Below, in pieces: positions 7,481-21,436 of a DNA stretch of 64,000 nucleotides. The notes under the pieces were generated by a model, which made no database searches, had not been told where the DNA came from, and was given only the letters and a program-made list of their open reading frames with translations. A program made the position numbers and the translations under genes. Source of the DNA: Deltaproteobacteria bacterium (GTDB lineage Bacteria; UBA10199; JACPAL01; JAHFST01); contig JAHFST010000006.1 in NCBI GenBank assembly GCA_023265625.1, positions 62,001 through 126,000 on the forward strand, written 5' to 3'. The stretch's first letter is position 1, and every line of letters starts with the position of its first letter.

Positions 7481-8338
7481 AGCGCTACTGACGTCATTCG
7501 CCAGGTGAACAAATTTCTCAATCACAATCCGTTCCGGCCGGTCAGTGGGCAGGATCCCGGCTTTTTCAAAATAAGGCAAAAATTCGCCCAAGGTGCTGCG
7601 CAACATTTTGCGGCGTTGGGTGAAGGCGGTGCGGACGATTTTTTGGAAGAGGGGGAAGTTTTGGATTGCGTAACGGGGTTGGTCGGTGAGTCGGAATTCC
7701 ACGACGGCCGAATCGACCTTCGGCGGCGGGGCGAAGGCCCCCGGGGGGAGGCGCATGACGATCCGGGTTTGGGCCCAAACCTGGACCATGATGGAGAGGA
7801 CCCCGTAGTCCTTGGGGCGTGTGGGGGTGGCGACTAGGCGCTCGGCGACCTCGCGTTGGACCATTAGGTGGCATTGGGTCATGTAGGGGCGTCCCGGTGG
7901 GACGCCCTCCGGGTGATGTCGGGGTTCTGGGCGACCCACCGGGTCGCCCCTACAATTGCCCGTGATTTCCGTGTTAAAATTCACCCCTAACAACCTAAAA
8001 ATTATCTCTGTCGCGATATTGTAAGGCAAATTGGCGATCACCTTCCAAGGTCCCGGTTCCAAAATGGTTGTCAAATCGGTTGCCAAAATATCCCCAGCAA
8101 TCACTGTGACGTGATCCGGCAATTTTTCCCGCAGCGGGGCGATCAATCGCTCATCTTTTTCAATTGCCACCACCCGTCCGGCCGTTGCGGCGATCTGGGC
8201 GGTCATCCATCCGGGGCCTGGGCCGATTTCTAAGACCTGATCGGTGGGTTGCAACTGGGCCAGGGAGACGATTTTATTGATAGTGGCAGGATTGGTTAGG
8301 AAATGTTGCCCGAGAGATTTTTTGGGGGAGAATCGCAT
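7469..8338 (-). CDS. rsmA: 16S rRNA dimethyladenosine transferase, with an in-frame repeat insertion
   Basis: RsmA/KsgA dimethylates the two adjacent adenines in the helix 45 loop of 16S rRNA. The N-terminus KKSLGQHFLTNP, the SAM motif EIGPGPGWMT and the catalytic NLPYN are all present. Family members run straight from the NLPYN helix into LMVQREVAERL; here about 25 residues rich in Gly, Pro and Arg (beginning RGDPVGRPEPRH) are inserted between them, encoded by the palindromic element at 7882-7954 with the frame preserved. The ATG at 8338 is chosen because the longer TTG start at 8350 lies inside another palindrome. The end overlaps phosphatase copy 3. It follows tsaD on the same strand. Confidence 0.93.
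   Translation of the reverse strand: MRFSPKKSLGQHFLTNPATINKIVSLAQLQPTDQVLEIGPGPGWMTAQIAATAGRVVAIEKDERLIAPLREKLPDHVTVIAGDILATDLTTILEPGPWKVIANLPYNIATEIIFRLLGVNFNTEITGNCRGDPVGRPEPRHHPEGVPPGRPYMTQCHLMVQREVAERLVATPTRPKDYGVLSIMVQVWAQTRIVMRLPPGAFAPPPKVDSAVVEFRLTDQPRYAIQNFPLFQKIVRTAFTQRRKMLRSTLGEFLPYFEKAGILPTDRPERIVIEKFVHLANDVSSASLV
7882..7954. repeat. Family 1 palindromic repeat (GTAGGGGCG type) inside rsmA
   Basis: A 73-bp element that starts TGTAGGGGCG and ends CGCCCCTACA. It contains two hairpins: a GGGCGTCCC/GGGACGCCC stem and a GGGCGACCC/GGGTCGCCC stem. It is translated in the rsmA frame. The same ends recur at 8339, 19673, 20025, 40147, 40566, 47848, 47979 and 51572. Confidence 0.9.
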
Positions 8339-17759: not shown

Positions 17760-18029
17760 ATGAATACTAAATTAGATATTGAAAAAGGGATTATTCCCCT
17801 CTCGCAGTTTCGACAGGAGTCCAAGGATTTTCTCAATAGGATTCGGAAGACGCATGAGCCGCTTATCCTGACCCAAAATGGCGAGAGTGCCGCCGTTGTT
17901 TTGAGTCCGCAAGATTATCAACGTCTCATCTATGAGCGCGACCTGTTTCGTGCCATTGCCGAGGGGGAAAAAGACTTGGCGGAAGGTCGTACCATCTCCC
18001 ATGAGGAACTTTTCAAAGAGTTGGCATGA
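17760..18029 (+). CDS. Phd/YefM-type antitoxin
   Basis: An 89-residue antitoxin. The N-terminal DNA-binding half (IIPLSQFRQESKDFLNRI, then LILTQNGESAAVVLSPQDYQRL) is the typical Phd/YefM fold, and the acidic C-terminal tail would wrap the toxin. It overlaps the toxin gene by 4 bp (ATGA). Together with the direct repeat upstream this forms a complete self-regulated type II module. Confidence 0.9.
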   Translation: MNTKLDIEKGIIPLSQFRQESKDFLNRIRKTHEPLILTQNGESAAVVLSPQDYQRLIYERDLFRAIAEGEKDLAEGRTISHEELFKELA

Positions 18030-18313
18030 ATCTCGTTTGGACCCACCGAGCAGCTTCTGATCTCAGAAGCATCAAGGCCTTCATCGCCTACGACAAACCA
18101 GTTGCCGCCGTCCAGTGGTGCCAGAAGATTAAAAAAGCGGCGGAACGACTGCGCAACTTCCCACGAAGTGGACGAATTGTTCCGGAGCTTTCCCAAGATA
18201 TTGTCCGGGAGTTGATCGTTGACAATTACCGCATCATTTACAAAATAACGAAAAAAATAGTGGCCATTTTAACGGTTTTTTCAGGGCATCAACTCCTCAA
18301 ACAGTTCGAGTAA
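18026..18313 (+). CDS. RelE/ParE-family toxin
   Basis: A 95-residue toxin with WTHRAASDLRSIKAFIAYD at the start, a middle LRNFPRSGRIVPE and RELIVDNYRIIYKI near the end, as in ParE/RelE proteins. ParE types poison gyrase and RelE types cleave mRNA on the ribosome; the RVRVIYRI-like strand here is closer to ParE. The last 25 bases overlap the end of the convergent pabC gene. Its length and motifs look intact. Confidence 0.88.
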   Translation: MNLVWTHRAASDLRSIKAFIAYDKPVAAVQWCQKIKKAAERLRNFPRSGRIVPELSQDIVRELIVDNYRIIYKITKKIVAILTVFSGHQLLKQFE

Positions 18314-19113
18314 GCTTCCATCAACTTGCTACTGACTGGCCCTGGACAAGAAGATCCGATTTTTTTTCCTTCGAGAGAACGGATCGGCAAAATGTCTTTC
18401 AAAGTGCTCGTGACAAATATCTCATCGGCCCCAGATAGGTCTTTGGGGCGTAAACTTCTCTCGTTCACCTTTAACTGAATTTTTTTCGCCAATTGCATGA
18501 CCACCTTCCTCCGGACGCCGGGGAGCAGGCCTGCGTTGATGGGTGGGGTGTAGAGGATGCCTCGTTTGACCATGAAGATATTACTACTGGCGCCCTCGGT
18601 AATTTCGTCTTGGGCATTGAGAAAAATTCCCTCGACGGCGTGGCGTTTGGCGATCTCCTGACGTGCGAATACTTTGGTGAGATAGTTGGTTGATTTGATG
18701 CCGGCCAAGGCCGTGCTGTCGGATCGTGTGGAGCGAATCAGGATGAGTTTGCCGCCGCGTTGATAGCAGGATCGCGGATAGGGGATGAAGGGCTCGGTGA
18801 TGAGGGTCAACTGAGGTTGGCCGGATGGGAGTTGGGATAAGGTGAGGCGGATCCTTGCCTCTTGGAGATGATTTTTATGTAAGGTTTGGTGGAGCGCTTG
18901 GGTTAATTGTTTGTGGGTCACCGGGAGCTTCAAGCTGAGGAGGCGGGCATTGCGGTCCAGGCGCTTGAGGTGATCGGGTAAAAATAAAATCTTTCCCCGC
19001 ATGGCGCGCAGGGTCTCGAAGACGCCATGGCCGTAGAGGTAGGCGGAGTCATCGACCGACACCCCGGCCTGGTTTTTTGGGATGAGTTTGCCATTGATCC
19101 AGGTGAAATTCAT
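18289..19113 (-). CDS. pabC: Class IV aminotransferase, probable aminodeoxychorismate lyase
   Basis: A 274-residue fold-type IV PLP enzyme. It has YLYGHGVFETLR near the N-terminus, the PLP lysine in STNYLTKVFARQEI, and EGASSNIFMVKRG for phosphate binding. PabC releases pyruvate from aminodeoxychorismate to give p-aminobenzoate for folate. The branched-chain and D-amino-acid aminotransferases share this fold, so the assignment relies on the adjacent pabB: the pabB stop and the pabC ATG are directly adjacent (TAAATG). The 3' end overlaps the convergent toxin gene. Confidence 0.85.
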   Translation of the reverse strand: MNFTWINGKLIPKNQAGVSVDDSAYLYGHGVFETLRAMRGKILFLPDHLKRLDRNARLLSLKLPVTHKQLTQALHQTLHKNHLQEARIRLTLSQLPSGQPQLTLITEPFIPYPRSCYQRGGKLILIRSTRSDSTALAGIKSTNYLTKVFARQEIAKRHAVEGIFLNAQDEITEGASSNIFMVKRGILYTPPINAGLLPGVRRKVVMQLAKKIQLKVNERSLRPKDLSGADEIFVTSTLKDILPIRSLEGKKIGSSCPGPVSSKLMEAYSNCLRS

Positions 19114-20517
19114 TTAGAGTGACTCCACAATCCCCTTGGCTTTCACCAAGGTCTCTTCATATTCCTGCTCCGGATCGGAATCGGCTACGATCCCTCCGCC
19201 GGCCCACCAATGCACGAACCCATCTTTCACCACGAGGGTGCGAATGGCCACATTAAAATGAGCCTGGCCTGCTTGATCCACGAAGCCAATCGCCCCGGTA
19301 TAGACCTCCCGTGCCGTTGGCTCCAGTTCGCGGATGATTTGCATGGCGCGAACCTTTGGGGCGCCGGTGATGGATCCACCCGGAAAGGTGGCGCGGAGGA
19401 CGTCTTCGATAGAACAATCCTCTCGAAGCGTGCCTTGCACGGTGGCTACTAGGTGATGGACCTGGGGATAGGATTCGACCTGTGCCACCGGTGTGGCAAC
19501 TTGCACGGAACCGGTTTGGCACACCTTGCCCAGGTCGTTGCGTTCCAAATCGACGATCATCAACAGTTCTGCCCGGTCCTTGGCGCTGGTATACAATTCT
19601 TCTTTGAAACGGGCATCGGCTTCCGGGGTGTTGCCACGAGGCCGGGTCCCTTTGATCGGGCGGGTGGTGACCTGTAGGGGCGCTGCTCCAACCAGAGGCT
19701 GGTCCGCCTCTGGCGGATGCTGCGCCCTATCCCGGCGGTCGTCGGGGGGCGCGCCAAGGGGCGCCCCTACATGAAGGAAACATTCCGGCGAAGCAGAAAT
19801 AATCTGCGCCTCCCCCAGATTGAGATAGGCGGCGTAGGGGGCCGGGCTGGTTTGGCGGAGCTGTTGGTAAAGGTCGTAAGACGATCGGGTTGTTGAGGTA
19901 GTCCAGCGCTGCGAAAGGTTCACCTGATAGACGTCTCCAGCGGCGATGTATCGTTTTATCTTTTGCACCGCGGCGATGTATTCGAGGCGGGTGAAATTCG
20001 ATTGGATATCCCTAGGCCCCTGCCGTAGGGGCGGCCCTACGTGGCCGCCCGGCTCGTGTGTTGCCGTGGCCGCAAACAGGGGGCACCCACGGGGAGTTGC
20101 CCCTACAGTCCACCCTTTTTTTTCAAAATGATCATACACATAAAAATTTTCATATCGCGCAAAAACCGCCGCGGGTATCAGTCTGGACTGGCGTGATGGA
20201 ATTTTGGATTCCAAGAGATTGTACAATTCATACCCCAAATACCCAATCCATCCGCCATTAAATGGCAACCTCGGAATTCCCCCTCTTAGGGTAAGAGGGG
20301 GGCAGGGGGTGTTATTCCCCAAAAATGCAAACGGATCTGCCTCCCCGGGCCCTCCATTAAACCGATAGATTTCGACCGGATCCCAAGCGGCAATGGTGTA
20401 TTGCCCCTGAGGTCCCCCCAGCGAGGATTCCAGCAGAAAAAAATATGGACTTTGATACATTTCCGGCGCAATTCCTTCAGGGGTGAAGGTGACTTCTTGT
20501 AAATCCATCGCTGTCAT
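19114..20517 (-). CDS. pabB: Aminodeoxychorismate synthase component I, with three in-frame repeat insertions
   Basis: A 467-residue chorismate-utilising enzyme that makes 4-amino-4-deoxychorismate with glutamine amidotransferase PabA. Core motifs are AAGDVYQVNLSQRW, TRPIKGTRPRG, GSITGAPKVRAM and WWAGGGIVADSDPEQEY. Three repeat elements lie inside the gene and are read through in frame: at 20275-20319 (residues near [10 protein letters not shown]), at 20025-20106 (about 28 residues) and at 19673-19771 (about 33 residues, splitting SPECFLHV from TTRPIKGTRPRG). The start is taken at 20517 (MTAMDLQEV); 20508 is possible. The 5' end overlaps the divergent MBL gene. pabA is not in the window. Confidence 0.92.
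   Translation of the reverse strand: MTAMDLQEVTFTPEGIAPEMYQSPYFFLLESSLGGPQGQYTIAAWDPVEIYRFNGGPGEADPFAFLGNNTPCPPLTLRGGIPRLPFNGGWIGYLGYELYNLLESKIPSRQSRLIPAAVFARYENFYVYDHFEKKGWTVGATPRGCPLFAATATHEPGGHVGPPLRQGPRDIQSNFTRLEYIAAVQKIKRYIAAGDVYQVNLSQRWTTSTTRSSYDLYQQLRQTSPAPYAAYLNLGEAQIISASPECFLHVGAPLGAPPDDRRDRAQHPPEADQPLVGAAPLQVTTRPIKGTRPRGNTPEADARFKEELYTSAKDRAELLMIVDLERNDLGKVCQTGSVQVATPVAQVESYPQVHHLVATVQGTLREDCSIEDVLRATFPGGSITGAPKVRAMQIIRELEPTAREVYTGAIGFVDQAGQAHFNVAIRTLVVKDGFVHWWAGGGIVADSDPEQEYEETLVKAKGIVESL
19673..19771. repeat. Family 1 repeat inside pabB (site A)
   Basis: A 99-bp element, exactly 33 codons. It begins TGTAGGGGCG, ends CGCCCCTACA, and has an internal AACCAGAGGC/GCCTCTGG-like hairpin. 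It is inserted in the most conserved stretch of PabB just before the KGTRPRG active-site loop. Confidence 0.9.
20025..20106. repeat. Family 1 repeat inside pabB (site B)
   Basis: An 82-bp element from GTAGGGGCGG to TTGCCCCTAC. The first hairpin is GGGCGGCC.../GTGGCCGCCC and the second pairs a GGGGGCA-like arm with TTGCCCC. It is read as a Gly/Pro/Arg-rich loop in PabB. Confidence 0.88.
20275..20319. repeat. Family 3 repeat (CCCCCTCTTAC type) inside pabB (site C)
   Basis: A 45-bp element with a CCCCCTCTTA/TAAGAGGGGG hairpin and the trailing GCAGGGGGTGTTAT. It encodes the Pro- and Gly-flanked segment [10 protein letters not shown]. The same family occurs at 31613-31705. Confidence 0.85.
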
Positions 20518-21436
20518 TGCCCTGTTCCTTATCGTAGGCCCTGGCGGCCTGACCAGGGCTATTTTTGCCGAGGGGCGTACGGTCAAGCTGGAGATTTTGT
20601 CGACTGGGACCTTTGAGGCGAATTATTCCGATCTGGTGGCGGGGGGTGCGTCACGGCAGGTGACCTTGCCCATTCCCGTGTATTTGATCCGTCACCCCAG
20701 CAATGGGATGATTCTGTTTGATTCAGGTCTTGGGTTGAAATTTAAGTCACAATTGCAGGGTTGGTGGTTGCATCGCCTCTTTCAACTCTTTTTGCCCTAT
20801 CACCTGGGGGCAGGGGAGACGGCCAGCGAACAAATGGTTGCGCAGGGGATCCAGGCCAAGGACGTTCGGTATATCATCCTTTCGCATCTTCATTATGACC
20901 ATGCCGGCGGGCTGGCCGATTTTCCGAAGGCGCAGATTTTAGTGTCGGAGGACGAATGGCAGCACGGGGATGTGTCACGGTTGCGGGCCCGGTTTTATGG
21001 GTACATGAAGGAGATGTATGAAGGGATGGAGGATCGTGTGCAGTTGATCGAATATCCCCCCGTGTCTAATTATGACCCGTTTGAGGCGAGTCTGGATTTG
21101 TTTGGCGATGGGAGCCTGATGTTGTTGGCGACGCCGGGGCATACGCCGGGGCATCAATCGTTGCTGTTGCCTAGTGTGTTTCCGTGTCCGCGGATTGACA
21201 AGGCACATGATGCCGGTCCAGATAGACCTTGTCCCGTTCTGCTGACCGGTGATGCGGTTTGGGTTCGGGAAAATTACGAACGCCCGGCCCCAAAGGGGTG
21301 GAAGGCGCAATTCATTGAAGAGTCCAAGGAACAAGCCTGGGAGACGACTCAAAAGATTCATCAGTTTCACCAAGAGCACCCCGAGGTGGTGATTATTTCG
21401 GGTCATGATCCAGAGCGATTGCAGGGTAAGAATTGA
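20483..21436 (+). CDS. Exported metallo-beta-lactamase fold hydrolase (AHL-lactonase-like)
   Basis: A 317-residue protein with a signal peptide (residues 1-29, SIAVIALFLIVG core, ending FAEG). The MBL dinuclear zinc motif HLHYDH is at 135-140. Later ligands are in ATPGHTPGHQSLLL (His), LLTGDAVWV (Asp) and ISGHDPE (His). The layout is like N-acyl-homoserine lactonases and related lactone hydrolases, but the substrate is not certain. The GTG start at 20483 is inside the divergent pabB 5' end, giving an overlap of about 35 bp; this start is needed to keep the signal peptide. Nothing else in the operon suggests quorum signalling. Confidence 0.82.
   Translation: MKVTSCKSIAVIALFLIVGPGGLTRAIFAEGRTVKLEILSTGTFEANYSDLVAGGASRQVTLPIPVYLIRHPSNGMILFDSGLGLKFKSQLQGWWLHRLFQLFLPYHLGAGETASEQMVAQGIQAKDVRYIILSHLHYDHAGGLADFPKAQILVSEDEWQHGDVSRLRARFYGYMKEMYEGMEDRVQLIEYPPVSNYDPFEASLDLFGDGSLMLLATPGHTPGHQSLLLPSVFPCPRIDKAHDAGPDRPCPVLLTGDAVWVRENYERPAPKGWKAQFIEESKEQAWETTQKIHQFHQEHPEVVIISGHDPERLQGKN

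Follow-up and report, generated by a model that had tools for sequence, protein, structure and literature searches.

How a folate enzyme can hold several repeat elements within its coding sequence, and whether such elements are selected for being readable or only removed where they do harm, are the questions raised by the pabB gene in the window examined here (the whole stretch of 64,000 nucleotides that was analysed). A preliminary description had reported three insertions from two repeat families in this gene. All three are in frame as placed (Table 1), and the count rises to four events and three families, since one element contains a nested unit of a third family that a sister element lacks.

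The gene is a single open frame coding 490 residues in its longest reading. The product passed the TIGR00553 equivalog model (342.9 bits against a cut-off of 328.4), and both Pfam domains expected of PabB, PF00425 and PF04715, were found. Its AlphaFold model (pLDDT 89, pTM 0.90) agrees in fold with solved PabB structures (best E value, 1.9e-42), and the blocks with values below 70, residues 71-80, 141-170, and 251-280 counted from the ATG at 20517, correspond to the three inserts, which are predicted to form floppy loops on an intact fold. All residues that are invariant across an alignment of 60 PabB proteins are retained. The branch from the root of the order clade measures 0.93, compared with 1.06-1.12 in relatives and 0.65 in one of them, and shows no acceleration; relaxed selection on pabB, tested in this way, was not supported. 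The closest PabB among those compared is 57% identical, and a scan of named genomes with PabB yielded best segments of 35-52% identity and no close relative. A search of the available genome sequence for a second pabB found none, the other long match being a paralogue of ca. 33% identity that we would label TrpE type. Thus, neither of the two circumstances that the preliminary description had set against its own reading, a second intact pabB and relaxed selection on this one, was found.

Directly downstream lies a pabC-like gene for a class IV aminotransferase. Its product scores under the cut-off with every NCBIfam model that it matches, among them those for aminodeoxychorismate lyase. Just past it, at 17760-18313, there is a Phd/YefM antitoxin and ParE toxin pair (PF02604, PF05016). 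On the other side, the 5' end of pabB overlaps at 20483-20586 with that of a divergent gene of the metallo-beta-lactamase fold (20483-21436); for one or both of these genes the longest reading therefore probably begins too far upstream.

Table 1. Features of the pabB locus (window positions) and related loci elsewhere in the genome
Feature	Position	Strand	Description
pabC-like class IV aminotransferase gene	18289..19113	-	Directly downstream of pabB; PF01063
pabB, aminodeoxychorismate synthase component I	19114..20586	-	TIGR00553, PF00425, PF04715, AlphaFold model; ATG at 20517 likely start, TTG at 20586 longest reading
Family-1 GTAG REP dimer	19673..19771		99 nt; beta-hairpin turn between SPE and PIKGTRPRG; minus-strand phase GTA-GGG-GC, peptide VGAPLGAPPDDRRDRAQHPPEADQPLVGAAPL
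Nested 30-nt unit, third repeat family	19688..19717		CCAACCAGAGGCTGGTCCGCCTCTGGCGGA; 10 codons, in left hairpin of the 19673-19771 element
Family-1 GTAG REP dimer	20024..20107		84 nt; most of the linker from N-terminal domain to chorismate-binding domain; peptide VGATPRGCPLFAATATHEPGGHVGPPL; first base C for T
Family-3 palindromic repeat	20277..20314		N-terminal-domain loop; core 20279-20301; 11 residues
PabB insert junction			Region around FLHVGAPLGAPPDDR
folC	L202:6955-8322		Three family-1 elements
mutL	L157:9503-11293		Multi-element gene
mutY	L201:6024-7163		Multi-element gene
metG	L220:5169-7268		Multi-element gene
bioA	L213:11824-13668		Multi-element gene
Biotin carboxylase gene	L166:8777-10540		Multi-element gene
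RAYTs with internal element	L042, L043, L251		G000 contigs C32, C36, C26

Both family-1 elements in pabB are bounded by TGTAGGGGC...GCCCCTACA ends, and coordinates, ends, and the single open frame agree with the two family-1 and one family-3 elements described earlier. The 99-nt element folds into a hairpin (z score, -4.9), and its right arm is identical to that of the sister element L169:13180-13276. The nested 30-nt unit is missing from this sister but present, nested in the same way, in a folC element (L202:7257-7316) and also in gcvPB (L004); its family has 12 matches in the genome versus 2 for the control. The core of the family-3 repeat is the palindrome CCCCCTCTTNNNGTAAGAGGGGG, also written CCCCCTCTTAGGGTAAGAGGGGG, and the repeat likewise folds into a hairpin (z score, -4.5).

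The segment from SPE to KGTRPRG is 36 residues long here, while in relatives it has mostly 8 (median, 8) and at most 13, which bears out the earlier claim that one insert separates these motifs. The N-terminal loop (32 residues versus a median of 38 in relatives) and the linker (41 versus 47) are not longer than usual, so the repeats in these two places have become, or replaced, variable loop sequence. A clear net gain in length, 28 residues, is seen only in the hairpin insert.

Across the genome, TGTAGGGGC occurs at 254 sites versus 46 for the reversed control, and the family-3 palindrome is present in ca. 42 copies versus 0-2 control sites. The pabB inserts are members of repeat families and not chance resemblances. 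Element statistics were obtained from 603 kb, made up of the window and 37 further stretches chosen around TGTAGGGGC matches and drawn from part of the contigs. This sample contains 63 paired family-1 elements with pair spans of 29-99 nt, nearly all with the GTAG foot and GGGC(G/A)...GCCC arms. By the approximate gene context given by a home-made codon-usage caller, 24 of the 63 lie in frame with coding sequence at both sides. Most in-gene hosts are housekeeping genes, named by their Pfam and NCBIfam matches, to which GcvPB is added. Two in-frame elements each were found in metG, the biotin carboxylase gene, bioA, mutL, mutY, and pabB, and three in folC, which is a folate gene like pabB; the other hosts include ligA, moeA, rsmA/ksgA, dus, gcvT, and a phosphomannomutase-type gene. 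Seven genes with at least two elements compare with 0.8 expected within the stretches (0 of 20,000 simulations reached this number), and clustering within genes therefore exceeds chance. In the window, a 73-nt family-1 element at 7882-7954 is in frame within the rsmA/ksgA-type gene; as its length is not divisible by 3, bases must have been added or deleted where it joins the gene. Outside genes, the upstream frame terminates in several cases at the TAG of a GTAG foot (L159:7196, L157:13094, L213:13667, L209:6267, L160:6810, L202:5938, and L213:235).

Candidate enzymes for the movement of these repeats are encoded in the same genome, which has ten Y1_Tnp matches. Three RAYTs, two of them (L042 and L043) among those matches and a third (L251) found by homology, contain a complete in-frame GTAG element just behind their HUH motif, MPNHxHGI. 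The same arrangement, with other element sequences, recurs in ca. 20 homologues (among L222-L242), some of them from this order, others from its class or from further lineages. The site of the internal REP dimer is fixed, and its sequence varies between copies and genomes. The internal element of L043 is one of a subfamily that recurs in the genome; that of L251 has its left arm in common with the linker element of pabB, both left hairpins being of one subfamily. Model scores for the RAYTs were 45.5 and 61.2 bits with NF047646 (cut-off, 80; the best stretch covers just the part after the insert) and 22.2 and 30.8 bits with PF01797 (cut-off, 23). A search for GTAGGGGC beside the first eight Y1_Tnp matches gave one distant site only. 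The resident RAYT/TnpAREP proteins are the most likely agents of family-1 mobilisation.

The same PabB loops are filled with repeats in other genera. In the linker, the protein of G023 contains, without mismatch, a repeat with 71 copies in the G023 genome, that of G003 a member of a 7-copy family, and that of G004 a palindrome found at just 4 sites in the G004 genome; the G004 protein has another repeat-like insert near its C terminus. At the hairpin turn of the G003 protein (L006), a degenerate GTAG element of 28 nt, GTAAGGGCAGACGGCGGTGCGCCCCTAC, is read in the same phase as the 99-nt element described here, reflecting either shared ancestry or independent insertion. In the N-terminal loop of the G002 protein there is a 30-nt-type GTAG element, GGGCGTATCGCGATACGCCCCTAC, which matches the 30-nt elements of the present genome at 22 of 24 bases. 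Since unrelated repeats occupy the same loops, the pattern points to tolerance of the protein and not to targeting by the elements, and the occupancy is convergent. In effect, a folate enzyme has been scanned by insertion in nature, the same three PabB loops accepting unrelated mobile repeats across genera.

We consider it highly probable that mobile REPs insert widely, that only readable copies in tolerant loops survive, and that this PabB is still a functional aminodeoxychorismate synthase. The family-1 inserts would be non-autonomous GTAG-type REP elements, arranged as inverted REP dimers, which a resident RAYT/TnpAREP similar to subclass 2.4 most likely moves via single-stranded DNA. Copies would spread across the genome, and those landing in genes would persist only if length and phase leave the frame open and if the encoded peptide, rich in Gly, Ala, Pro, and Arg, sits in a tolerant surface loop or linker. 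With three such loops, PabB would have gathered copies of three unrelated repeat families, one of them nested, and its inserts are presumably translated.

The main alternative places selection on the repeats themselves: a master copy kept readable in the transposase frame would make the whole family readable, and its spread into genes like pabB would be a consequence. An element in frame inside its own transposase does provide a route for such selection, and the arrangement recurs in the three RAYTs of this genome and in their relatives. Moreover, the GTA-GGG phase, found in 17 of the 24 in-gene copies (the other usable phase in the remaining 7), is also the commonest in the transposases. However, the phase in which TAG is read is closed anyway, leaving only two usable ones, and copies outside genes show little sign of selection for readability. 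Their openness in the two usable phases (0.69 and 0.72) does not exceed that of shuffled interiors (0.66 and 0.66; standard deviation, 0.05), compared with 0.90 and 0.98 for in-gene copies. Lengths divisible by 3 are found in 18 of 39 of them, no significant departure from one third (P = 0.09). The corresponding figure inside genes is 21 of 24 (Fisher P = 0.001), a contrast with some circularity, as elements counted as in frame tend to have such lengths. In addition, only 38% of the sampled elements lie in genes, versus 64-73% expected if just the unreadable copies were purged, and the 603 kb sampled showed no copy that clearly breaks a gene. The data support removal of harmful copies, many readable ones included, and do not require selection of readable elements, although the deficit in genes could also arise if REPs inserted preferentially between genes. 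Of the earlier proposal that elements are selected for readable frames or removed otherwise, the part on removal is retained, and that on selection finds no support in the copies outside genes. Family-level selection for readability is accordingly an unlikely explanation. We regard with similar doubt the broader idea that the REP inside the transposase frame keeps part of the population translatable, as a coding-compatible mobile element that repeatedly gives loops and linkers to unrelated enzymes; if it were true, PabB, FolC, MutL, and others would be its natural recipients. As a REP family, REP-bearing transposases, and many decorated housekeeping genes are joined in one genome, the choice between filter and adaptation becomes a question that can be tested by counting.

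Two further readings concern PabB itself. The gene could be decaying and still open by chance, gathering inserts under relaxed selection, as four repeat events and 28 net residues between active-site motifs might suggest. Yet this is the sole pabB of the genome, beside a pabC-like gene, with the invariant residues, the branch length, and the confident fold described above, and folC, mutL, metG, and mutY have comparable element densities, which makes decay highly unlikely. Even less credible is that the inserted peptides are functional in PabB (in regulation, PabA docking, or stability) and positively selected. Such a role would account for the repeat-filled loops of several genera, but the repeats there are unrelated in sequence, the same elements occur in unrelated proteins of this genome, and the predicted order of the inserts is low. 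We therefore keep to insertion followed by removal as the preferred reading.

Intragenic GTAG REPs have been described as palindromic, GTAG-tagged units, mostly inverted dimers, lying in frame in genes, some of which are hit twice; DNA-repair genes are prominent among them, and the TAG end is often the stop codon of a neighbour (Di Nocera et al. 2013, PMC3733652). All these traits are found here, in other organisms and with other sequence families than in that study. In nearly all of the 63 elements a G+C-based hairpin follows immediately 3' of a GT[AG]G foot; the family is dispersed, in inverted pairs and in a copy number well above the control, and cognate RAYTs, three with a full internal element, are present. 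The present case differs in that a single gene has copies of three unrelated families, one of them nested, and in that the same loops are used convergently by repeats in other genera. An in-frame REP between the HuH and Y motifs characterizes TnpAREP subclass 2.4, or RAYT group 4 (Quentin et al. 2018, PMC6006769), and the arrangement in the transposases is thus already in the literature. The RAYTs of this genome share it, together with double-foot REPs, inverted dimers, and GT[AG]G feet, and may be called subclass 2.4-like on the basis of their anatomy. The Rickettsia palindromic elements (RPEs; Ogata et al. 2000, 2002), as presented in PMC10969869, are translated in housekeeping genes and are said to be compatible with the protein fold. 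They resemble the present case as palindromic mobile repeats read inside such genes. In that account they measure ca. 150 bp and have a conserved peptide, whereas the elements here span 30-99 nt, are read in two phases (17 and 7 copies) with variable interiors, and have an identifiable transposase. In-frame palindromic repeats, in Rickettsia and as GTAG REPs with twice-hit genes, and REPs inside a transposase are therefore already known; what is new is a PabB so rich in inserts, a third family nested among them, and the convergent filling of the same loops by repeats of other genera.
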